NCBI GenBank assembly: GCA_023627715.1
Contig: JAMAHW010000001.1
Coordinates: 1,337,379-1,401,378 of the forward strand
Direction: 5' to 3'
Length of the DNA: 64,000 bases
DNA from: Periconia sp. R9002
Taxonomy: Eukaryota; Ascomycota; Dothideomycetes; Pleosporales; Periconiaceae
Shown: positions 20,170 through 58,606 of the stretch, piece after piece
Layout of the letters: each line of letters opens with the position of its first letter
Position numbering within the stretch: position 1 is the stretch's first letter
Notes under the pieces: model-generated
Told to the model about the DNA's origin: nothing
Databases searched by the model: none
The model's input: only the letters and a program-made list of their open reading frames with translations
Translations under genes and position numbers: made by a program

Positions 20170-20497
20170 CGTTGTTGGATTACCGGCTGTTGTGTTACGT
20201 GGGGCAGCACGTACACTTTAAACTTGAATACAATCTTCTTTGTGTAACGTCGCGTAAGTCATACTATACACATGATTCGTTAACGATCAGCTGAGTTTCC
20301 ATGAGCAAGTAACAAACGCTCCTGATCATCCTATCACCTTCGAGTGTTTGCTCGACCAGCATCTCACGTGCAGTCTTGGCGGTGAATAATTCAAAGTTCG
20401 ACCTTTGTTGCTACCCACGCTGTTGTTGCAAGTCAGTCAACTGACTCCGCAATCTTTCGTTCTTGTACGTTATCTATTGGTATTTTTCAAACGAAAG
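20170..20497. promoter_or_regulatory. Divergent promoter between P-loop NTPase and RdRP-helicase
   Basis: 328 bp separate the two start codons. It contains a CACGTG E-box-like site (about 20365) and TGATCA/CGATCAGCTGAG palindromic stretches. Its shortness limits how much extra N-terminal exon the RdRP gene could have. Confidence 0.5.
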
Positions 20498-23400
20498 ATG
20501 AGCAATCTGCGGGCTTTCCGCGCCCTTCTTGCCGACAGCATAGAGCCCGATGCGCAAGCCTGGGAATACGTTGTCGCCGACCTGCCCTCGGGTGAGCGTA
20601 CGAATGCTAGTGGCCTTGTCAAGTCTCTTTCATTCGTGACTTCAGGCACAAAACAAGAGATCATCTTGCGATTTGAGAGTGTGCCAGGAAATCGCGTTAC
20701 TCGCGCGGAGCTGTTAGACAAACTTCTCCTCGTTTCATTCGTCAACTTCCGCCCACGATGGCCAGGACAAACGCCATCCGATACAGAACGACCCGCAACA
20801 ATGAGAGAGAGCGGGGACTACACTACCAGGCTACTTCAAACCGGTGTCAAAATTAACGGTCTCCATTATCATTTTTACGGTCATTCAAATAGCCAGCTTA
20901 AATCTCGATCTTGTTTGATGTACGGGAGCTCAAAGGAAAATATCGCGGCGAAGCTTGAAGCGATGGGAGACTTCTCAAAGCTGAAGTCCGTTGCTAAAAA
21001 GGCAAAACGGATCGGACTTCTCTTTTCCAGTGCGGAGATGGCACTCACTCTGCCACCCGACCGCTGCAGCGACATCGAAGATGTCAAACGAGACGATTAT
21101 ACATTTACAGACGGATGCGGCTCAATCTCCCCTCAACTCGCACGACAATTGATGCAACGGCGCAAAATACGTTTCCGTAACAAAACGTATCTTCCATCAG
21201 TGTATCAGATACGATATCGGGGATACAAGGGGGTGTTGACCTTAGACCCAAGTCTTCGCGGGAAGATTCAGGTGGAGTTCCGAGAATCTATGAGAAAGTT
21301 CAAGGACGCGCCTGACCACGGTCTCGCAGTAGTAGATTACTCCAAGGTCAGTTTCTTTATTTGAAGAGCGAAATTCAGAGCTAATTTCTTTCAGCCATAT
21401 GCTTTTGGATACCTGAACGATGAAGTAGTGATATTGCTGCACACACTGGGTATTTCGGAAAAGACTCTGCTTGCAAAGCAGCAAGATCACTTAAATCTTT
21501 TGAGCAGAGCAAGCCAGGGAGATTCACAGACAGCATTCCAATTCCTTTCATACTGCGATAAAACTGATGTTGCAGAAAAGCTTCTTATCGAAGGTATCGA
21601 AGCAATCCGTGGCACGTTGGGCAGTTTGGTTCGGCAGGAGTATGCGAAAATGCTGAATAAACGAGATGAACAGCGATGTCGGATCCTGATACCAAAATCT
21701 CGCCTTTTATTCGGTGTATGTGATCCCACCAGCAAGAATGGAAAACCAGGTAGACTGAAGGAGGGCGAATGCTTCGTACGGATAACCCACGATGGTGACG
21801 GCATGCCCCGTACCATCATCAACACTGAAGTGATGGTCACTCGAAACCCTTGTTTGCATCCTGGTGATTTACAAAAGTTCAAAGCCGTGGATATACCTGA
21901 GTTTGCCGATCATCTAAAAGACTGCATCGTTTTCTCGACTCGAGGGAAACGGCCGAGCGCTGATCTAATGTTAGGTGGTGACCTTGACGGGGACAAATGT
22001 AAGTATTGATTTGCCAGATATCAGATTCTTGTTAATGATTCAATCTAGTCTTCGTCACATGGGACCCCAATATCATTCCGCGAACGATGGCGGAACCAGC
22101 CGAATACCCTGCAGGAAAAGAGCTGGTCACCTTCGGTGAAGTCACAGGGGATGCCCGTGCCGAATATTTTGCCCGATATAACAACGCATCCTTGGGGAAG
22201 GTCAAGAATCTCTACATGAAATGGGCGCGGCTGGGGAATTGCATGAGTTCTGAGTGCCAGCAGCTGAATCGGCTCTTCTCGCAATGCGTGGATGGTAATC
22301 ACATTCGTATACCGGAAAATCTACAAAAGCTCGCACTTCTTGAGGATGCACCCGATCCCACGTCAGATACCCCACCTTTCATCCTGGATGTTCTGCATGA
22401 AGCTAGCAAGAAATTTATACAACAAGCGGCTTTGCTACACCCAGACCACGCAGACGATGTTGAGGTGCTAGAATTATTTCTCGTCAGAGACAAGATCGCG
22501 ATTACCGAGTTCGAATTGCTCCAACTTACAATGAAATGGTGCAATCGGAACGGTTTCAATATTCTAGAATTTAGCGAGCTTCTCGATTTCAGCGCCCTTA
22601 CAGATGAACAACAACTTTGGTTTCTCCACAGCCTTCCACCCTCGGCCACAGCGCCCAGTCTAGTTCGAAATGGGCTTCTGCAATCAGACTTGATCACACC
22701 GTCTGAGGCTCGTAGATTCCGCCTGGATCACTCCGCTCTGCACTGGAAACCAGTCTTCAAATCATCCAGTGATCGAATGGGGAGGTTTCTGCCAACGTTG
22801 GCTCGGGCAATAGAAACCTTCCATAAGAAGCTGATTATTTTGACCGCTGACGAACGTCTCTCCTTGGCTATATATGTACCAAGGAAGATTGAGAAAGCCA
22901 ACGAAGTGCAAGTGGATACCATGGTCCGCGTTTTCGCTTTTCCACACTCTCAAGGATCTCATTCCGCAAACTACAAAGTTTTCCCTACAAAGACCAACTA
23001 CCGACTATTCTTCGATGAACATGTTTTCCAACTGTATGAGGGTAAACGTGCCAACACATGGATCTTTCTGAGGCGGCCCCAAAATGACGACTCGTTATAC
23101 AAAAACGAAAAGAAGAAAACTGATCAACGTCGACTGAGGGACGTGACTTTGCGTGAAGGAGTCAACTTCGAGTGTAAAGCCAGTGTCGCTTTAAATAAAT
23201 TTAACGGCGATCTACAAAAGCATGTGGGCAGAGTCCAGCAGAATGGTGTCCTAGGCGCGGTAAGTTTGGTCGTCACATCTTTGGGAAAGATCTATCCGCT
23301 TACTAGGTTATAGGAAATATATGCGATTAGCAATCGAGACATAAACTCTATGCGCGTGCTCGACGAGTGGCTAAATTATGTTGACACTGATGAGATCTTA

Positions 23401-25862
23401 CCGCTATTCGAAAAACTCGATGTTGATTACGAGATTCCACGATTGGCCTCTTTCGATTGGACAACTTGTGAGCCGAGGATCATTTCCATTGTCAGGTACC
23501 AAAATCTATCTGATCTCAGGCATGTCGCTTCAGTGTCAGAACTTCAGACCATTTTTGCCATACTTCAACGTCACGACGAAAAGAAAGGGCTTCGGGACAC
23601 ATTCAGCTATATGCTAGATTTAGAAGCAAGTTCGCTCTCCACTCTGGACCGCAGGGCCGTTGCAAAAACGTTGCTGGAATACCTACTGGAAGCTGTGTAC
23701 CTCGTTCCCACTTTTCTGCGCTCACAAACATGGAAGAATCACAAAAGTGAGCTTGAGGATGATTTGGTCCGGGATGCTCCTAGACTGTTACAAGAACTTC
23801 TTCTTTTGTCCAATAGTATGGGAAGTTTCATTCACGGGCCGCTCACACTCATCCTTCAAGAGCTGAGACGTATGTCATTAGAGGAGTTTTGCAATCTCGT
23901 CGAGCATAGTGCACTTGTCATCAGAGACCCAGAAGCTGCTTTGGACTTCTTCCTGGAAATACTGGAACCCGAAACATCGAGGTTGCTCGTTGGACGTCCT
24001 TTTGCCATTCGACAGCTTGTTTCATCTTTGTTTGGCATTTCGCTTGATCATATTGAAGAAGCGTCAAACATTCGCAAATCCAGCAGTGAAGAACTGAAGC
24101 TTCACGGTCACACGATTAATAACGATGGTTTCACGACAGTCAGAAGCACTCTTCGCATTGATTCTTCTATGAACAGAAATTTCAGAGTGGGTGATCATGT
24201 TAGGCTGACGGCATCTACAGAGCCGACGAATGCTCCAATGGCAAAGCCAGTATCCATGGACGCAATCATACTGGCCGTTGAAGCGGGCGAAGTGACTTTC
24301 CGGTGTCTGCATCATCCCCCTGCATATTTTGAGCAGTGTGCCTGGAATGTTCTTCACTGTGGATCTTTTGTCACCAGCAAGACGACGCTAGATGCCGTGA
24401 CTGACTTTTATACTATGCGCGAATCTTGTTGTAAGATCTATGCGCTGCTCTTGGGGTTGCCTTCAATCGATCAAATCAAACTCCCCAATGTCAAATTACC
24501 TGTATCGGCACAACCGTCGCTGAACGCTAGTCAGAACGCCGCACTATCAGCATCAATGGAGAACTCATTGACTTTTATCTGGGGACCTCCGGGAACAGGC
24601 AAAACGCAAACAATTGTCATGATTATGACCCAGTTATTGAGGGCGCTCCCACATTCAAGATTTTTGGTTACAGCACCCACACACAACGCATGCGATAATT
24701 TGATGAAGCGATTCCTGAAAGACTCCGTGGCGAAAAACGAAGTTGCGCCTATTAGAGTATCGACACAGGTATGCCAACTTTCTTATTCCGCGTGTCATTA
24801 TCGTGAATAGTATTGCTAAAATATAGGAAGCTTTCGAAAGTCGACCCAGAGTTACGATCCTGGACCTGCGATGCCATGTTGGGGAAAGATATCAGTGGAA
24901 ACCATCCTGCCTTAAGAAAAGCCAAGAAACGAGTCAAAGAAGCTAGACTTATCTTTGCGACATGCATCGGCTCGGGAATTGGCCTACTTCGGGACCAAGC
25001 ATTCGACGTCGTGATCATCGATGAAGCTTCACAACTGACGGAGCCCGCGACTCTTGTCCCACTCGTGAAAGGCTGCTCGCGTGCCATTCTAGTTGGTGAC
25101 CACGTCCAACTACGCGCTACCGTGCAGCAGAACTCTGTTTTGACCGGATATGATGTTTCCCTTTTTGAACGTCATTACGGGTTGCCGCCACAAGAAGGCG
25201 TCGCAAAGGTCATGCTTGACACTCAGTACCGCATGCACCGCTCCATATGCGACTTTAGCTCCTCGGAATTCTACGAAAGTAAACTGAAGACTGCTGTCCA
25301 AGACAGCGGGAGACCTTTGCATGCCTCGCTGTTTCCTTGGCCTGAGGACAATCGCATGGTGTGGATCGATTGCGCAACATCTGAAGATTTGGGTCGCCAA
25401 TCCAAATCGAATGCCGGTCAGGTCGCATTATGCAAACAAGTAGTCCAGCTTCTTGGAAAACCACCGGCAGACTCTGAAAACAAGCATGGGAAACCACTTT
25501 CAATCGTCGTGTTGACGCCATACACGCGTCAGAAGACGATGTTGGCTTCTGCGATTTCTAATGTTGAAGTTTCTTCCATCGACGGTTTCCAAGGTCGTGA
25601 GGCAGACATCATCGTTTTCGTGACAGTACGATGCAATGTGTATGGTGACCTCGGCTTCTTGACAGACATGCGTCGCTTGAACGTGGCCATGACGAGGGCT
25701 AAAGCTGGAGTTGTGATAATTGGGAGCAAGAGCACAATGACTGGAGTCGCGGCTGGTGTGGAAGCTGATGAAAGTCGGTTGACGTGGAGAAGGCTGGTTG
25801 AACGATGCTCTATTGTGGAATTACCGGTTCTGGATGAGAATGGCGGTTCAGATACTAGATAG
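20498..25862 (+). CDS. RNA-dependent RNA polymerase fused to an SF1 (UPF1/NFX1-like) helicase
   Basis: Five exons (20498-21346, 21395-21998, 22049-23259, 23314-24768, 24831-25862) give 1,716 residues. The first part is an RNA-silencing RdRP: NSQLKSRSCLMYG, DGCGSISP, YRGYKGVL, FRESMRKF and the catalytic DLDGD at residues 479-483, which is split from the next residue by an intron. The C-terminal part is a complete SF1 helicase: GPPGTGKT (1312-1319), DEASQ (from 1437), VGDHVQL, DTQYRMH, DGFQGREADI and NVAMTRAK. The exon joining the halves runs through intron 23260-23313 in phase 0, with a good donor and branch. The last intron uses the AG at 24830; an earlier AG at 24826 gives a stop. The RdRP lacks the long N-terminal region of QDE-1. 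In fission yeast the polymerase (Rdp1) and helicase (Hrr1) of the RDRC are separate proteins. Confidence 0.88.
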
Positions 25863-26946: not shown

Positions 26947-29900
26947 ATGGATGAACCCATTGCTGTCATCGGCCTGGATGCCAAATTGCCATGCGACGGA
27001 ACGAGCGTTGAAGACTTTTTCAAATTCATTGTCGCTGGACGATCTGCGAAAGCTCCTGTTCCAGCAGATCGATACAATGCAGACGCTTTCTGGCACCCCG
27101 ACAGCCATCGCGATGGAATTGTGCGTAGCAATCCTTCTTGCATTTCCCCTGTTCTCCATCCTATGTCAGCGCGGAAAAAAAGCTTGTAACTGATGAGAGC
27201 TTCTTTTACAGATTACTGGGAAAGAAGGGCACTTCATGAACACCAACATCAAAGCGTTCGACGCGCCCTTCTTCTCCATGACACCCGCCGAGGCCGCCAG
27301 TCTAGATCCCCAACAGCGCATGCTGCTTGAGTGCGTCTACACGGCCATGGAGAACGCGGGCTACACTATGGCTGAGATGAACGGAACTTCCACGGGTGTC
27401 TATGCCGGTGCATTCATGTGGGACTATCGACAGGTTCTCATGAAAGATGTGGATGTACCCATGACGTACCATGGCACTGGAACGCTGGCGTGTACGCTGG
27501 CGGGACGCATCTCGTGGTTTTACAACTTTAGGGGTCCGGCATTTACGCTGGATACCGCGTGTTCAAGTAGTATGGTTGCGCTTCACCAGGCTGTGGTGGG
27601 GTTAAGGACGGGTGGATGTAATATGGTATGTCATTTGCTGTCTTGTTCACATGCCCCCCTCCCTGCCAATTATACGGCGCTGAATAGATTTCTAATCATT
27701 GAATTTATAACAGGCACTCGCTTGTGGAACGAACATCATATTCTCTCCTGAGATGGCCGTGGAACTTAATGGTCTTGGTGTTTTGGGTCCGGATAGCACG
27801 TCGTACAGCTTCGACAAGAGGGCGAATGGATATGGAAGAGGTGAAGGTATTGGCACTGTTGTCCTCAAAAGAATGTCTGACGCTATACGCGATGGAGATA
27901 GTAAGTCTTTTCTTTCATCTTTTCACACATATACAAGTGTTTTCATGCCTTGTATTTCCCGATTTGTTCTGACTTGTGTTCAAAAAACCAGCCATCCGCG
28001 CGGTGATTCGCAACACTGGCTGCAATCACGACGGCCACTCGGCCAGTCTCTCTGCACCATCCAAGGAGGCTCAATCAGAGTTAATGGCCCACACATACGC
28101 ACAAGTCAAGCTCGACCCGTCCGAGACGCGGTTTTTCGAGGCCCACGGAACGGGAACGCCAGTGGGTGATCCCATCGAAGCCGGCGCCATCAGCGGAATG
28201 TTTTCCAAGTACCGGTCCGCAGAGGAACCCCTTATTATTGGCGCTCTAAAGAGCAATGTCGGCCATAGCGAGGGCAATTCTGGCATCTCTTCCTTCATCA
28301 AATCAGTGCTGTGCGTCGAGAGCGGCATCATACCCGCAAACGCATGGCATGAGGAGAAGAATCCTGCTATTCCAGATGAATGGCACCTGCAGTTCGCGAC
28401 TAAAGCGATGTGTTGGCCGAAGTCCAAAACGGGGGTGAGGAGAGTGTCGATTAATTCTTTTGGTGTCTCGGGTACGAATGTGCATGTTGTCTTAGACGAT
28501 GCTGGCCATTTTCTGAAGGAGCATGGATACGATGACGCACCACATCGAACGATCGAGGAACCCCGTCTGCCAGGTGTAACCTGTAAGTCTTACAAATTCT
28601 ATCCAGGTGTCAGATTTCTTTTTTTTTTTCTTTTTTTTCAAATGCGTTCAGCTAACATGAAGGGTTACTCCAGCCAATTTCCCCACAGCCATCAATGGAA
28701 CCAACTTCACACCACAGCTGTTCGTGTTGAGCAGCCATGACCAAGATGGTATTTCCCGACTTTGCAAGGCATACAAGGGATATTTGCCATCCATGACCGA
28801 ATCTCTTTACAACCTGAGCTACACAATGGCTAGTAAAAGGTCCCGGTTCACATGGCGCTCGGCGACTGTCGCGAGCTCGGGACAGGAACTGGAACACAGA
28901 ATGGCCGAAGGTCTACCGGCTTCCCGTGCCATCGTGAATCCCGGTCTCGGACTCGTCTTCACCGGCCAGGGTGCTCAGTGGGCGCGGATGGGGAGAGAAC
29001 TACTTCTTCACTACCAGTCGTACCGACGGAGTCTTGAAGCTGCCGATGCGTATCTGAAGGAACTGGGTTGCGAGTGGTCCGCTATAGGTAGGTCGAAGTG
29101 CAAAGGGGTATTTATAGAAAACTCTTCAGCTGACTTGCTTCATTTGCACAGATGAACTTTCAAAGGATTCCACGATTTCCCGGATCAACGATGCCGAGTT
29201 CTCTCAAACCCTGTGTACGGCGGTGCAAGTTGGTTTGATCGACCTTCTGGCCGATTGGGGACTCAAATATCGCGCTGTTGCAGGGCATTCATCAGGCGAA
29301 ATAGCAGCGGCCTACTCCGCTGGTGCCATTTCGCAAAAGTGTGCTTGGAGAATCGCATATTGGCGTGGTGAGTGGACCAATTTTGACCTTCTATGAGAGA
29401 CAAATTCGACTGACCCAGCTTTCACTTCGTAAGGGAAACTCTGTGCCAAACTAGCTCATGATTTGGAACAGCCAAAGGGCACTATGGCTGCTGTCGGGCT
29501 GGACCTCGAAAAGACGCAACAGATGATCGACCGAGTCCACAAATCTGGATTCAAGAGCGCCACGAAGCTTACCGTTGCCTGCATGAATAGCAAGACCAGC
29601 CACACTGTCAGTGGAGACGTTGCGCAAATAGACGCGCTCGTGGAAACCCTGAACCAGGAGAAGGTCTTTGCGCGAAAATTGAAGGTCGAGATGGCGTACC
29701 ACTCGACGCACATGGAACCCATCGCAAAGGAATACGCCTTTTGTATAGGACACATCCAGCCGGGTCAACAACAAGCTTCCGAAGTACGGTTCTTCTCATC
29801 GGCGTATGGGACGGAAATCTCGCACTCCAAATTGCAAGACGCTGGATACTGGACTAAGAACTTGATATCGGCCGTGCGCTTCAACGAATCAATGACAGGC

Positions 29901-32900
29901 ATGCTTCAAGCCTTGACCACTGCGAAGGGAGAGGAAAGCAGCCAGTCCCATCTTGTGACAGATATCGTCGAGATTGGACCACACTCGGCATTACAGGGTC
30001 CACTCCGCAACATCACCGACGAAGCCAGGGGCAATGGCAGTGTGAAATATCACCATGTTCTCCAAAGGGAAGAACCAGACTTGGTGTCCGTGATGAAGGG
30101 AGTCGGATCATTGTTTACTCGCGGTATTGAGCTTGACTTGGTCAAGGTAAACCACGTCTCTAACACTGCCAATCCTTCCATGTTGATAGATCTTCCTCGA
30201 TACCCCTTCAACCACTCACGCGAATATTGGAACGAAGGCCGCCTCAGTCGCAACTTCCGCTTCCGCCAGCATGCTCGCCACGAACTGCTCGGCATGCCCG
30301 TCAACGATTGGGATGGAAAACACGATGCCGTCTGGCGCAACTGGATCCGACTGTCGGAGAATCCCTGGGTGGAGCACCATACCATCTCGGGATCGGCGCT
30401 CTATCCCGCCGCGGGCATGCTCGTCATGGCCATCGAGGGCTGTAAACAACTCGCCGAGCAATCCAACCCCGGAAAATCCATCAAGGGATTCCGATTCCGC
30501 GAGGTGTCGTTTCACTCCGCATTGCAGGTTCCTGACAATGCCACGGGTGTCGAATCGCATCTGTATCTCCGCCCCGTGAAGCAGGCGGCTTTGGAATCTA
30601 AGACTTCGGCTTGGCGCGAGTTCCAGGTTTGCACCGCCCAGGACGACGATGAGTGGCGAGAGCACTGCTGTGGGCAAGTTCTCGTAGAATTTGACGAGGG
30701 GACGACGGCTGTGGACGGTGGACGGGAAGACCAGGTACGCCTAGAGCATTGCCGAGCGAGGATTGAGGACGCTCAGCAAAAGTGCAAGAGTGCCGTCGCA
30801 GCAGACGCGGTGTATGATGCGTGGAGAAGCGTTGGGTTGGACTTCGGCCCCAGCTTCCAAACCGTGACCAATTCTCTCGTCGACCACGAAACTGGCGTAA
30901 CCTTGGCTACGGTCAAGCCCACTACTCCTTACATAAAAACGCTGATGCCCAAGCCGTATCTGCAGCCGCATTTGATCCATCCAACAACGCTGGATGGCGC
31001 TCTCCAAGTATGCCTTGTCCCTGTTATATCGAACCCTGCCAGGAAACAAAAGAGCGCTGTCGTCGTTTCTTTCATCGAAGAGCTTTGGGTCTCGGGATCG
31101 CAGCATCCGGATGAGGGATATCAAGTTTTCGCCGATTCTGTTCCCCGCGGGCGCAAGGAGCACTTGATGAGCTGCACTGCCGTGGCTCCGGACACAAGAA
31201 GCCCCATGGTCAGCGTGTCGGGTATTGTCGTCTCGAATGTCGACTTCACCGAAGACGACGCCTTAGATGCGGACGAGGATCCCAGACATCAAGCTTGGAA
31301 CATTGACTGGAAATTGGACCCGGAATTCCTCGCTGTCGGTCAAACCGAGAACACTTTCCAAGGCCCCGGAGGGTTCCAAAGGTACTTGGATGTGCTGGCC
31401 CACAAGAATCCCTTGATGAAATTTATCGATTTCAGCGGTGGTTCCCAGGAATTTTCCAAGCGTGTCTTGTCCACTCTAGGCCAGCGTTTCGCGCAGTACC
31501 ATCTGACCAGCGACTCCTCTTCTTCATTGGAGGAGCTCCAGAAGGACAATTTGCTCGAATTTGTCGAGTTCAAACTTCTGGACATAAAGTCGGAGCTATC
31601 ATCATCGGAGGGTTTTGATGAGGATTCGTACGATGTGCTTTCTGCACCATTGAACCTCATTTCCAATGCAGACATTGATGGCATTTTAGCTACGATCAAG
31701 AAGCTCCTCAAGCCCAAGGGGAAGATTATTTTGACAACCACGGCGACCCTGGAAAAAGACATGGTGCAGAGCTGGAGCACTTCCCTGCGAAACAACGGCT
31801 TTGCCGGTATCGAAGCCCAGCTCGTTGATGAAGGCTCTACCGTTCTGATTTCTAGCGGCCCATCTCATGAATCCAACGGCAATGGAACCAATGGAATAAC
31901 AGCCTCTGGAAGCTGCTACATCGTTGGTGATTTGTCACTCGAGACACAGAGCCGCGTCGCCGAAAAGCTAGCATCCTCGCTGCAGGAAGAAAAGGGTGTT
32001 ACGGCTCGAGTTACTACAATTTCACAGTACGCTGAGCTTGCAGCTTCGGCCACCCAGGAAGAAATGGCAGCGAGCACCTGCATTCTCCTCAACGAGTGGG
32101 CTGCATCTCTGTTGAAATCGGCCAACGACGAGGTCTTGAGGACTCTGAAGACAATGGTTAATGGAAAGCGCTTGTTGTGGGTCAACAGCGATGCATCTCC
32201 CGAAACAGCTCTCGTCAACGGCTTTGCAGCATCGATCCGTCTTGAGAGACCCGGGATCGAATTCATAATTCTCACCATGAAAGCCACAGAAGCTGAAGAC
32301 GTAGTCGCCAAGAACATTTTGGAGGTGGACCACCGCCTATCATCGCCTGAGGGGCTGACAGAAACGTCGTACAGATTCAGCGACGGCATGGTCACCATAC
32401 CACGACTCATCCCAGCTCCCGAAGTGACTAAACACATATCAAAGAAGACACCAACCGACTCCATCTCGCAAACTGAGTTTGGCGCAGACTCCAACCGAGC
32501 CCTCCGCCTCCGTATCAAAACCGTAGGTCTCCTCAACTCGCTTTACTTCACCGACGACGACCGCGTGCAGGCTACAGCTCCGCTGGGCGAAGACGAGGTC
32601 GAGTTCCGCACCATGGCGACGGGTGTCAACTTCAAGGATCTCGCCGTGATGCTCGGCAAGATCCAAGAAACCCCCGTGGGCCTCGAGGCTGCCGGTGTCG
32701 TCACCAAGGTGGGATCGGGAGTGACTAAATTCAAGCCGGGCGATGCGGTCTTTGGACTCACTTTCGAGGGTGCCTTTTCTACGTATGGAAAAGGATGGGA
32801 GGGAACACTTGCTAAGATCCCCGAGGGCGTATCATTTGCAGAAGCTGCTGCCATCCCGATTGTGTACACTACGGCATACGCCTGTCTTTACGACATTGGC

Positions 32901-34926
32901 GGTCTGAAAAGCCGCACCACCAGGCGACGCGGCAACCAAAAACCTCCCAGCGTGTTGATTCACGCCGCAGCCGGAGGCGTGGGACAGGCAGCTATCCAGA
33001 TGGCGCAGCGCGAAGGCGCTGAGATTTTCGCAACGGTCGGCAGCACCGAGAAGCGCGATTTCATTGAGCAAACTTATGGGATCCCGCGCGATCACATCTT
33101 CTCCAGCCGTGACCTGACTTTCAAGACTGGGATCCAGAGAATGACGCAAGGACGTGGCGTCGATATTGTCATTAACAGTCTGGCGGGTGATACGCTGCGC
33201 GCCTCGTGGGAAATTGTCGCGCCGTTTGGTGCGTTTGCTGAAATTGGGCTTTCCGATATTGAGTCTAGGGCTCGCATCTCAATGGCTCCTTATGCTAGAG
33301 GTGTCAGGTTTGAGGTACGTATTCTCTTTTTTGCGAATTTTGATATAACCCTATCGAGTCACGTGTGGTTGGAATATTACTGACTGTTTCTACCCTCTCC
33401 ACTTATTAGTCTCTCGAACTGAACTACATGCGCAACAACGGCCAAGGGCGCCTCGACGACATCTTCTCCCGCGCCATGACGAGCGTGTTGGGTAGCGAGC
33501 AGCAGTCAGAGGGTGGTCTCAAAGCCTTTACACATATCAAGAAGTATCCCGTCTCGCAGATCGAAGACGCCCTGCGCTTCATGCAAAGCGGCAAGCACAT
33601 AGGCAAGCTCGTGATTGAATACAACGCCAGCGACATAGTTTCCGTGCTCCAACCGTCCACAATCGCAGCACCTACAACGTTTGCGGCGGACGCAACGTAC
33701 GTTGTCTCCGGTGGACTGGGAGGTCTGGGTCTAGAAATCGTAAAGTGGATGGTGAACCAAGGCGCGAAGAATCTCTGTCTCATTTCAAGGAGTGGACTCG
33801 TTGCTGGAACGTCTGCAGAGTCAGTGGTGACGAACTTGAGGAACCAAGGGGCCAACGTTGTCACGCCTGCTTGCGATATTACTAACAAGAAGGCATTGGA
33901 GGAGATGGTGTCATCAACTCTCGCCGATATGCCTCCTGTGCGAGGATGTATCCAAGCGTCGGCCGTTTTTGCCGTAAGTGTTGTTCTTGGGATTCTTCCC
34001 ACCTTCCCATTGAACTGTGGTTGCTAACAGCCTTACTCTTGCAGGACAACATCTTCGAGCAAATGACAGTCGAAGGGTGGTACTCCGCCGTTGCCGTCAA
34101 ATCCACTGGAAGCATGAACCTCTGGGAATCTCTCACCTCCCGCAACTCAGACTCCACTCTCGACTTCTTCGCCATGCTCTCGTCCCTCTTCGGCGTGACG
34201 GGCAATAGCGGACAAGCTAACTACGCCGCCGGCAATGCGTACCAGGACGCCATGGCCCGGCACCTCTCCTCTCAAGGCCACAATGTCGTTGCTCTCAATG
34301 CACCCGTGCTGAGCGATGCCGGCGTCGTCGCTACGATTCCCAAGCTGAAGGAGTATCTAGCATCGACCGGTCTTCCGGCCATGAGTGTGGGAGAACTTAT
34401 CAACACGCTGGACTACTACTGCCGTCCCGCAGGCCAGCGCATCACAAACGTTGGCGCCGTGGAAGCGCAGCTGTTCCCCAGAATCTCGCGACCCGAGTAC
34501 TCAGCGAATGAGGGCGCCGAGCAGCCCGGATGGCAGGACGAGCCCATGTACAACCACATGGTGCTGCGCGGCGGCCTCAGCGGCAGCAAAAACGCCGGTG
34601 AATCCGGTGCGGGTGGAAAACGTCTCACATCCAGCCTCATCGCGGCGGCAGAGTCGCTCGAAGCAGCTCAGAAAATTGTGCTCGAAGCCCTTTTGGAGCA
34701 GCTAGCCAAGACCCTGGGGTACGGGTTGGAGGATCTTGATCCTGCGAAGCCTATGAATGCCCACGGTGTGGATTCCCTTGTGGCGGTGGAGATGCGTGTG
34801 TGGATGACCAAGGAGATTGGGGCGGATATTTCGGTGTTTGAGCTCACCAGTGGTGAGAAGATGGAACAGCTTGCTGCAAGGGCGGCGGCGGGATCGAGGT
34901 TTTTGCCTGAATTCAAGAGCGAGTAG
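26947..34926 (+). CDS. Highly reducing polyketide synthase (KS-AT-DH-psiMT-ER-KR-ACP)
   Basis: Nine exons (26947-27120, 27212-27625, 27714-27900, 27992-28582, 28674-29087, 29152-29367, 29434-33314, 33410-33973, 34045-34926) encode 2,440 residues. KS: DTACSSS with Cys175, plus EAHGTGT and NVGHSEG. AT: GHSSGE with Ser640, and [18 protein letters not shown] with His981, and TLDGALQ. The region at about 1290-1560 sits where a C-methyltransferase belongs, but the glycine-rich SAM motif is replaced by IDFSGGS, so it is probably inactive. ER (~1690-1960): [13 protein letters not shown] (~2050-2240): SGGLGGLG and a Ser/Tyr pair in [17 protein letters not shown] with Ser2391. There is no thioesterase, so a separate release step is expected. 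The intron-4 acceptor could be 28673 or 28688, both in frame. The product cannot be predicted. Confidence 0.95.
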
Positions 34927-57084: not shown

Positions 57085-58606
57085 ATGAAGTCCTTCACCA
57101 CCATCGCCGCTGTTGGCGCTCTCGCCGCCTCCGTCTCGGCCACTCCTGCTCTGGGCCCCCAGAAGCGTGCTCAAATCACGCCCATCACCATCAAGGGAAA
57201 CGGTACGTACAGGACACAACACCTCGACACACAAGCAATGCTTCATCGCCCTGTCGAGGATCCTACCCCACATCCATCGTCAGGCCGGCATCAGTGGCAT
57301 AAGCTCGTCTTGGGAACCCTTCTTGGAACGCTTGACTGACAACACAACAGCTTTCTTCCAAGGCGATAAGCGCTTCTACGTCCGTGGTGTCGACTACCAG
57401 CCCGGCGGCGCCTCCGACGCTAAAGACCCCATCGCCGACGTTGCTGGCTGCAAGCGCGATGTCGCCAAGTTCAAGGAGCTCGGCCTAAACACCATCCGTG
57501 TTTACACTGTCGACAACTCGGCCAACCACGATGAGTGCATGACGGAGCTTGCCAACGCTGGTATCTACCTTGCCCTCGATGTCAACTCGCCCAACTACTC
57601 CATCAACCGTGAGAAGCCCGCTCGTTCCTACAACAAGGTCTACCTCCAGAGCGTCTTCGCCACCATTGATGCCTTTGCCAAGTATGACAACACCCTCCTC
57701 TTCTTCTCGGGTAACGAGGTCATCAACGACGACAAGACCACGCAGTGCGCCCCTTACATCAAGGCTGTTGACCGTGACATGCGTTCTTACATCAACGCCC
57801 GCAAGTACCGCAAGATTCCTGTGGGTTACTCTGCCGCCGATGTCGAGGAGAACCGTGTCCAGATGGCTCAGTACATGAACTGCGGCCCCGATGGTGCTCG
57901 CAGCGACTTCTATGCCTTCAACGACTATGCCTGGTGCGACCCCGACACGTCCTCCTCTGACTGGGAGAAGAAGGCTCAGACCTTCTCCAACTACTCCATC
58001 CCTCTCTTCCTTTCCGAGTATGGTTGCAACAAGAACAAACGTGAATTCAACGCCGTCAAGGGCCTTTACGGTGATAAGATGACCCAGGCTTACTCTGGCG
58101 GTCTCGTCTACGAGTACACCGAGGAGGGTTCCAACTACGGTCTCGTCAAGCTTGACGGCGACAAGGTCTCGACACTCGACGACTTCGACGCCCTCAAGAA
58201 GGCTTTCAAGGACACCCCTATCCCCACCACCGACGGCAAGTACAACCAGCAAGGCTCTCCCTCCCAGTGCCCCCAGAAGGGTGAACACTGGAACGTCGAC
58301 ATGAAGGATGATGTCCTTCCTTCCATGCCCCAGGGTGTCGACGAGTACTTCAAGAACGGTGCCGGAACTGGCAAGGGTCTCAAGGGTGGCTCACAGGAGG
58401 CTGGTTCTGACAAGGCAGTCACTGGCCCTGCTGCCTCTGGTGCTATCACTACTGGTGCTACTGGCTCCAGCGGTGGGGCCGCTGCTGCCAGCTCGCCCAC
58501 TGCTTCCAAGAGCGCCGCCACCTCTTTCCGCAGCACTGAGTTGGCTCCCTTTGTCACTGGATTCGTGGTCCTCGTCTCTTCGGTTCTCGGCGCCGCTCTT
58601 TTGTAA
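57085..58606 (+). CDS. GPI-anchored beta-1,3-glucanosyltransferase, GH72 (Gel1/Gas1 family)
   Basis: Exons 57085-57202 and 57351-58606 encode 457 residues. A signal peptide (1-19) precedes the GH72 domain. Two glutamates sit in SGNEVIND (Glu162) and LSEYGCN (Glu262), exactly 100 residues apart, as the acid/base and nucleophile of this family should be. The family cuts beta-1,3-glucan and transfers the new end to another chain, elongating wall glucan. After about residue 375 comes a Gly/Ser/Ala-rich stalk with no Cys-rich CBM43 module, so it belongs to the module-free (Gel1-like) subgroup. The last ~20 residues are hydrophobic (FVTGFVVLVSSVLGAALL), the GPI-attachment signal. Codon usage is strongly biased to C in third position, suggesting high expression. 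Confidence 0.96.

Follow-up and report, generated by a model that had tools for sequence, protein, structure and literature searches.

In fission yeast, the RDRC contains Rdp1 together with Hrr1. One study describes Hrr1 as the S. pombe orthologue of ZNFX-1, and both are SF1 helicases that work with a silencing RdRP, ZNFX-1 doing so with EGO-1 in C. elegans (PMC9276528). The closest studied counterpart of the gene analysed here that we found in the literature searched is FGSG_09076 (FgRdRp5) of F. graminearum, for which papers of 2015 and 2024 give an RdRP plus a helicase (PMC4515635, PMC11237814). Its deletion reduced exonic siRNAs (ex-siRNAs) and ascospore discharge, had the weakest ex-siRNA effect among the three with small RNAs sequenced, and affected ribosome-biogenesis genes; its authors also weighed rRNA-processing and NMD-like roles (PMC4515635, PMC11237814). 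Published work further describes an SF2 (DEAD/helicase-C) domain placed N-terminally on the RdRP in Dictyostelium RrpA-C, Phytophthora RDR, Hydra and Nematostella.

We analysed a 64,000-nucleotide stretch of the Periconia sp. R9002 genome (the window). Once four short introns are removed, positions 20498-25862 of the forward strand translate into a single chain of 1,716 residues, the only stop being at its end. This gene is a member of the FgRdRp5-type family, and its architecture is already known rather than new: PF05183 is followed by AAA_11/AAA_12 in one polypeptide, with DLDGD, Walker A and Walker B intact. FGSG_09076 (P0076, 1,721 residues) aligned with it collinearly at full length, covering 100% of the query at 45% identity, and shares the order of RdRP, middle region and SF1 helicase. 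The two differ in species and in how the motor is labelled: the publications give it as DEAD-like plus AAA (PMC4515635, PMC11237814), whereas the Periconia motor is SF1 of the UPF1/IGHMBP2 kind by sequence and fold.

Gene structure and the RdRP half

The original prediction of an RdRP and an SF1 helicase in one 1,716-residue protein was borne out, with DLDGD (479-483), Walker A (1312) and DEAS (1437) all located (Table 1). Its list of introns held for 21999-22048, 23260-23313 and 24769-24830 and lacked a 48-nt intron at 21347-21394. The region's longest open frame ran to 498 codons, whereas none of 500 first-order Markov shuffles exceeded 266. The intron boundaries are supported by the relatives: across 241 aligned sequences, the zone around intron 3 (query 880-900) was ungapped relative to the query in 232 of 237 covering rows, and that around intron 4 (query 1366-1385) in 213 of 219; intron 3 lies within a predicted β-strand of the relative P0171. 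A second possible acceptor for intron 4, the TAG at 24826, four bases before the AAG, was rejected, as its use shifts the frame. We infer that the fused gene is spliced and expressed in Periconia sp. R9002.

Table 1. Positions in the window of the exons, introns, domains and motifs of the fused gene.
Feature	Position	Strand	Residues and remarks	Basis
Exon 1	20498..21346	+	1-283; short N-terminus and RdRP start	translation
RdRP domain PF05183	20681..22323	+	62-576; E 1.9e-116; introns 1 and 2 inside	Pfam
Intron 1	21347..21394	+	48 nt; GTCAGT...TTTCAG	
Exon 2	21395..21998	+	284-484; ends with first base of codon 485	translation
RdRP catalytic motif DLDGD	21980..21994	+	479-483	
Intron 2	21999..22048	+	50 nt; GTAAGT...ATCTAG	
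Exon 3	22049..23259	+	485-888; RdRP remainder and first part of middle region	translation
Beta-rich middle region	22747..23328	+	about 718-893; spans intron 3	predicted on relatives P0171, P0334
Intron 3	23260..23313	+	54 nt; GTAAGT...GTTATAG; retention gives in-frame stop	
Exon 4	23314..24768	+	889-1373; helical middle region, 1B-like barrel, Walker A, motif Ia	
Helical middle region	23341..24066	+	about 898-1139; no assigned fold	predicted on relatives
Stalk and 1B-like beta-barrel preceding motor	24067..24516	+	about 1140-1289	P0171 fold alignment
SF1 helicase core	24517..25781	+	1290-1690; intron 4 inside	
Walker A GPPGTGKT	24583..24606	+	1312-1319	
Intron 4	24769..24830	+	62 nt; acceptor AAG; retention gives stop after 1386 residues	
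Exon 5	24831..25862	+	1374-1716 and stop; motifs II-VI	translation
Walker B DEAS	25020..25031	+	1437-1440	

Of the 242 aligned rows, 230 retained the catalytic motif of the RdRP; eight of the 12 others were gapped over the whole motif, two were partly gapped and two carried changes (HLDGD and DLDGE). The fused protein is probably an active polymerase. The RdRP N-terminus was indeed short, as had been proposed: PF05183 begins at residue 62, versus 367 and 476 in two other RdRP frames of the genome (L001 and L002, counted from the preceding stop). In the QDE-1-like RdRP gene of this genome (L004), the open frame reaches PF05183 by its residue 11 and therefore shows no long N-terminus. Among the solved matches, RDR2 (9.6e-59) outscored QDE-1 (2.8e-14), which speaks against placing the fused RdRP in the QDE-1 clade.

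The helicase half and its affinity

Pfam matched the helicase half to AAA_12 (2.4e-49) and AAA_11 (8.4e-43). The motifs, given here under their usual labels (Walker A, Walker B and motifs Ia to VI), are largely intact in the family: GPPGTGKT was found in 212, GDHVQL in 193 and DEAS in 199 of the 242 aligned rows, 31 rows being gapped over the whole of DEAS. The Periconia protein also has QYRMH at residue 1505, and is probably a working helicase. Two Coleophoma proteins have changes at the Walker A lysine and in motifs II, III and VI, although their helicase part is still 50-51% identical to that of P0023, P0024, P0026 and P0047. Because these changes stand beside a retained DLDGD, some lineages of the fused family may do without ATPase activity.

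It had been proposed that such a fusion would be a polymerase-helicase complex in one polypeptide, set beside the separate proteins Rdp1 and Hrr1 of fission yeast and SAD-1 and SAD-3 of Neurospora. An RdRP and a complete SF1 helicase are fused, but in sequence the motor falls on the UPF1 side: phmmer gave 1.4e-48 for UPF1 and 2.5e-18 for ZNFX1, which stood in as the Hrr1-type sequence. As a control, the separate helicase L013 gave 3.6e-107 for ZNFX1 and 4.2e-36 for UPF1. Orthology of the fused motor with Hrr1/ZNFX1 was rejected on these scores and because the ZNFX1-like genes of the genome, L012 and L013, fall in another tree group (99/98). Since the motor is nearer UPF1 in sequence, and UPF1-like and ZNFX1-like genes also occur separately in the genome, the description of the protein as Rdp1 and Hrr1 in a single chain is no more than an analogy. 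The pairs Rdp1-Hrr1 and ZNFX-1-EGO-1 resemble the Periconia protein in joining a silencing RdRP with an SF1 helicase, and differ from it in being separate proteins with a ZNFX1-type helicase.

The folds predicted for relatives agree with this placement. The P0171 model, from about residue 589 onward, aligned with UPF1 and IGHMBP2, RNA-bound entries included, and like UPF1/NAM7 the fused motor combines an SF1 core with a stalk and a 1B-like barrel. The middle region is poorly covered by both VIA lists of fold matches, in which at least a fifth of the rows span 733-1193 of the P0334 model and 548-1185 of the P0171 model, so it may still have a known fold. The pTM values were modest (0.59 and 0.64), so the placement of domains in these models is uncertain. 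Unlike UPF1/NAM7 and IGHMBP2, the Periconia protein has a polymerase in front of the motor, and a Pfam search of it gave no match to UPF1_Zn_bind (CH, PF09416) or UPF1_1B_dom; the separate UPF1 gene (L008) carries both CH and 1B domains. An N-terminal DEAD plus Helicase_C arrangement was also absent from the fused protein, with the DEAD match below the Pfam cut-off and Helicase_C not among the matches listed. SF2-RdRP fusions likewise hold helicase and RdRP in a single chain, but there a DEAD-type helicase precedes the RdRP, whereas that of Periconia is SF1 and C-terminal. These differences in helicase type and domain order suggest that the two kinds of fusion were joined independently.

Distribution and ancestry of the fusion

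Three protein searches listed 120 of 252, 120 of 1,947 and 120 of 980 matching proteins. RdRP and AAA_11/AAA_12 domains occurred together in 119 of the 120 relatives listed of the 252, and the same two domain types in 112 of the 120 listed of 980 for a basidiomycete relative, which contradicts the possibility that homologues are always two separate proteins. The idea that the fusion is rare is unsupported, given its wide spread in Pezizomycotina and Agaricomycetes and the F. graminearum publications. Among the matches listed, the family reaches at least eight fungal classes in two phyla; classes were looked up for Tulasnella, Dactylella, Kalmusia, Monosporascus, Ascobolus, Coleophoma, Fusarium graminearum, Aspergillus fumigatus, Letrouitia and Glarea, and those of the remaining fungi are assumed.

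Trees of either half, built from the same 18 of the 242 aligned fused-family rows, placed the fused proteins in one group, with long branches among the outgroups in both. The genome has 17 further AAA_12 places, of which the helicase tree took in 11, leaving out L015, L016, L017, L020/L025, L023 and L024; the fused group (99/99) stood apart from those 11. Its neighbour was the DNA2-like L009 rather than UPF1 (88/82, on a long branch), with UPF1 (L008) one fork beyond (85/80), so any choice of nearest unfused relative for the motor is tentative. In the RdRP tree, which took in all four other RdRP places, the fused group stood apart from all four, with support (89/98) short of the 95/80 mark. 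Pairwise identities of the two halves correlated at 0.94 over 60 rows (every third of 178 well-covered rows). On this comparison of sequences, the two halves are inherited together in Ascomycota and Basidiomycota. From the spread over eight classes in two phyla, together with the single group, the joining may well date back to the split between Ascomycota and Basidiomycota; we met no statement to this effect in the literature consulted.

A proposed role and its alternatives

We propose, with a probability of about 0.77, that the protein is an FgRdRp5-type one-chain polymerase-helicase making dsRNA for Dicer, a cellular RdRP with a C-terminal UPF1/IGHMBP2-like motor. It would bind selected transcripts, and its ATP-driven motor would draw in or clear the template, or remove proteins and structure, while the DLDGD site would copy the RNA into dsRNA. 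The motor would probably work in cis, on the template that its own polymerase is copying. The genome's Dicers would then cut the dsRNA into exonic siRNAs to be loaded on Argonautes, with the strongest effect expected in spore development; Piwi-domain and RNase III-domain genes were found in the genome. By analogy, the Periconia protein probably has the same role in ex-siRNAs as its F. graminearum counterpart.

The locus might instead contain an RdRP gene that stops within intron 3, near 23313, and next to it a helicase gene that starts from the methionine at residue 901. Retention of intron 3 does bring an in-frame stop, and 46 of the 117 helicase-half proteins listed begin at query 900-904. 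Of these 117 newly listed proteins, 80 start at 885-904, near intron 3, and 49 stop at 1370-1379, near intron 4, as would be expected of genomic open frames if the introns are conserved. Against two genes, the flanks of intron 3 form one conserved block (AE[I/L/V]Y.ISN.D in ascomycete rows), ungapped in nearly all covering rows and within a predicted β-strand. In addition, 18 of the 117 listed proteins begin at query 362-662 and extend beyond 1300, many named genomes have full-length models, and P0059, if called on its longest contig of 5,483 bases, has scarcely any intron space for its 1,754 residues. We rejected the two-gene reading as extremely improbable, on the ungapped conserved junction and the full-length fused relatives; judged from sequence, the fusion is no gene-model accident.

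It is very improbable that the helicase half alone does the work, as a UPF1-like factor of NMD or rRNA processing, with the RdRP as a passenger. The motor is UPF1-like, and deletion of the F. graminearum counterpart hit ribosome-biogenesis genes. However, that deletion strain has fewer ex-siRNAs, DLDGD is so widely kept that most exceptions are gaps over the whole motif, and the genome encodes its own UPF1, complete with CH and 1B domains, beside a fused protein that shows no UPF1_Zn_bind match. A more serious, though still doubtful, alternative is that the SF1 half does not translocate as a helicase but tethers the polymerase, serving as a scaffold or as an RNA clamp gated by ATP. The Coleophoma proteins, with altered motifs on a well-conserved helicase part, favour a clamp, whereas the canonical motifs of most rows and the stalk and 1B barrel shared with UPF1 and IGHMBP2 speak for a motor.

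The polymerase-helicase reading could also extend to a family that switches its motor by splicing, one gene yielding polymerases both with and without a working motor, although we consider this improbable. In Pezizomycotina, an intron interrupts the helicase after motif Ia; in Agaricomycetes, to judge from the protein models, one may lie within Walker A. Among the matches listed, 10 of 120 Agaricomycete-set rows are in-frame models skipping exactly the Walker A lysine stretch (GPP|AVDN), six other such rows break off within Walker A, and in five ascomycete models the protein stops where intron 4 lies. Coprinopsis cinerea has both forms in two annotations of apparently one gene. Annotation error is the simpler reading of the motor-less models.

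To our knowledge, the part played by the SF1 helicase beside the silencing RdRPs of yeast and worms is not settled. The fused protein offers a natural one-chain RdRP-helicase whose two active sites could be inactivated separately, which would make the helicase's part directly testable. In helicase type and order, this SF1 fusion is distinct from the fusions with a DEAD-type helicase in amoebae and oomycetes.

Gene model and domains

The original prediction of an RNA-dependent RNA polymerase (RdRP) fused to an SF1 helicase was confirmed at the level of the gene. Removal of four introns yielded a translation of 1,716 residues with no internal stops, on which the residue numbers predicted for DLDGD, Walker A and DEAS proved exact. 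Introns 2, 3 and 4 had been placed correctly, and intron 1 was missing from the predicted set. The longest open frame spans 498 codons, compared with a maximum of 266 among 500 shuffles. Because relatives align across introns 3 and 4 without gaps (232 of 237 covering rows at query 880-900 and 213 of 219 at query 1366-1385, among 241 aligned relatives), the intron boundaries appear well supported by sequence comparison.

Features of the window
Feature	Position	Strand	Remarks
Fused gene	20498-25862	+	start 20498; stop ends 25862; in-frame stop upstream at 20387
Intron 1	21347-21394	+	retained: early stop at codon 289
Intron 2	21999-22048	+	retained: early stop at codon 488
Intron 3	23260-23313	+	retained: early stop at codon 906
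Intron 4	24769-24830	+	retained: early stop at codon 1387; AAG acceptor, four bases past TAG, keeps frame; the TAG would shift it
Polyketide synthase gene	26948-34926		directly downstream of fused gene; acyltransferase, dehydratase, enoylreductase-like, KR and carrier domains found; putative ketosynthase-like start read by eye
GH72 glucanosyltransferase match	57089-58606		frame, E 3e-125

Pfam places RdRP (PF05183) at residues 62-576 and AAA_11/AAA_12 nearer the C-terminus. The best-matching solved structure for the polymerase half is plant RDR2 (9.6e-59), with QDE-1 at just 2.8e-14; for the motor it is UPF1 (1.4e-48), followed by SMUBP-2 (IGHMBP2; 4.4e-36) and ZNFX1 (2.5e-18). At the N-terminus of the RdRP, noted as short, 61 residues precede PF05183, compared with 366 and 475, counted from the preceding stop, at the RdRP places L001 and L002 in the same genome, but the QDE-1-like RdRP L004 has 10 within its open frame alone.

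A search with the full protein scored 7,979 candidates and matched 252 proteins. The predicted domain architecture was borne out among the 120 matches listed, as precomputed annotation assigned both RdRP and AAA_11/AAA_12 to 119 of them (all except P0019). When the query, these 120 relatives and P0171 were aligned (122 rows), 108 rows covered both halves and the middle at >70%; among the remainder, P0016, P0086, P0116, P0118 and P0120 stop at query 1374-1377, adjoining intron 4. Searching with the helicase half alone listed 120 of 1,947 matches, 117 of them new. Among these listed proteins, 18 of the 117 begin at query 362-662 and extend beyond 1300, 80 begin at 885-904 and 49 stop at 1370-1379; the latter starts and ends are the pattern expected of genomic open frames in which introns 3 and 4 are conserved. 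Intron 3 is spanned in the ascomycete rows shown by a block, AE[I/L/V]Y.ISN.D, that lies within a beta-strand of the predicted P0171 model. Residues 889-1269, searched against the genome, matched one place, the window itself.

Published counterparts, spread and age

One listed relative, P0076, is FGSG_09076, the Fusarium graminearum protein FgRdRp5. PMC11237814 places its motor domains at 1277-1478 and 1475-1677 and the protein on a separate branch of the published tree. It reports that after deletion of the gene 47.6% of ascospore discharge remained, antisense-exon small RNAs stood at 18.91% rather than 27.3%, and 5'-U reads of 21-25 nt were fewer by ~32%; both small RNA classes were affected more strongly by Fgrdrp2 and Fgrdrp1 deletions. 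Other papers describe ATPase domains in an RdRP of Fusarium fujikuroi (PMC11130915) and, in Dictyostelium and oomycetes, a DEAD-type helicase N-terminal to RdRP (PMC3661229, PMC4791657). The architecture is thus already in print, and the window gene is a further FgRdRp5-type member.

The helicase-half search also returned a relative from Tulasnella (Basidiomycota, Agaricomycetes). With this protein as query, 120 of 980 matches were listed, of which 112 carried both domains, six lacked helicase annotation and two lacked RdRP annotation; the named rows are presumably Agaricomycetes. Among the matches listed, relatives occur in eight classes, Agaricomycetes included. The others, with one named row checked per class or genus, are Dothideomycetes (Kalmusia), Leotiomycetes (Glarea, Coleophoma), Sordariomycetes (F. 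graminearum), Eurotiomycetes (A. fumigatus), Lecanoromycetes (Letrouitia), Pezizomycetes (Ascobolus) and Orbiliomycetes (P0171, whose protein model begins behind the DLDGD motif).

Eighteen fused proteins, included in trees of 29 helicase rows and 22 RdRP rows, formed one group in both (99/99 and 89/98, respectively). Six basidiomycete rows grouped in each tree (92/94 and 98/97), and twelve ascomycete rows grouped in the helicase tree (97/93) and were without resolution in the RdRP tree. Pairwise identities of the two halves correlated at 0.94 (60 rows, sampled as one in three of the 178 with good coverage). We read these sequence patterns as suggesting a single joining of RdRP and helicase that would predate the split of Ascomycota and Basidiomycota; transfer of the fused gene between the two phyla is a possible alternative. 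Several outgroup branches were very long, and in the helicase tree the fused group was adjoined by the long-branched DNA2-like L009 (88/82), not UPF1. P0001 carries a Sordariomycete label (Monosporascus sp. GIB2) but is 66% identical to the window protein and groups with it and P0005; its assembly may be mislabelled or contaminated, or the gene transferred.

The 42.9 Mb genome (267 contigs) contains four RdRP places besides the window gene. One of these, L003 (G000:C189:3329-4966), has one in-frame TAA within the domain match, either a short intron or a sign of a decaying copy. The presence of silencing genes is shown by six matches to Piwi, spread over five places, and by nine to RNase III, which form pairs at three places. 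UPF1-like and ZNFX1-like genes exist separately from the fused motor, as L008 is a UPF1 that has both the CH and the 1B domain, and L013 and L012 are ZNFX1-like helicases.

State of the motor

By motif reading, both active sites are intact in the window protein. DLDGD is kept in 115 of the 122 rows of the query alignment and 115/120 of the Agaricomycete set (the listed relatives of the Tulasnella protein), and Walker A in 118/122 and 94/120. Both sites are also widely conserved. The likeliest mechanism is synthesis of dsRNA for Dicer, in which the polymerase would be served in cis by the motor on its own chain.

Two kinds of variation speak against the motor being strictly required. In Coleophoma, the Walker A lysine is replaced by T in P0020 (GPPGTGTT) and by R in P0022 (GPPGTGRT); both proteins also carry DKAS, GDHSQS and TGA and keep DLDGD, making them candidate natural ATPase-dead members. 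They may be paralogues, because their RdRP parts are 54-56% identical to four relatives that are themselves 71-80% identical to each other. In the Agaricomycete set, 10 of 120 models (P0323, P0325, P0327, P0328, P0330, P0331, P0332, P0338, P0344 and P0352) skip the Walker A lysine stretch in frame, leaving GPP joined to AVDN. These skips may well be annotation errors, alternative splicing being the other option; in Coprinopsis cinerea the stretch is present in model P0307 and absent in P0352. The original interpretation is partly supported, and the value of the family lies in offering a one-chain system that lets polymerase and helicase roles be separated.
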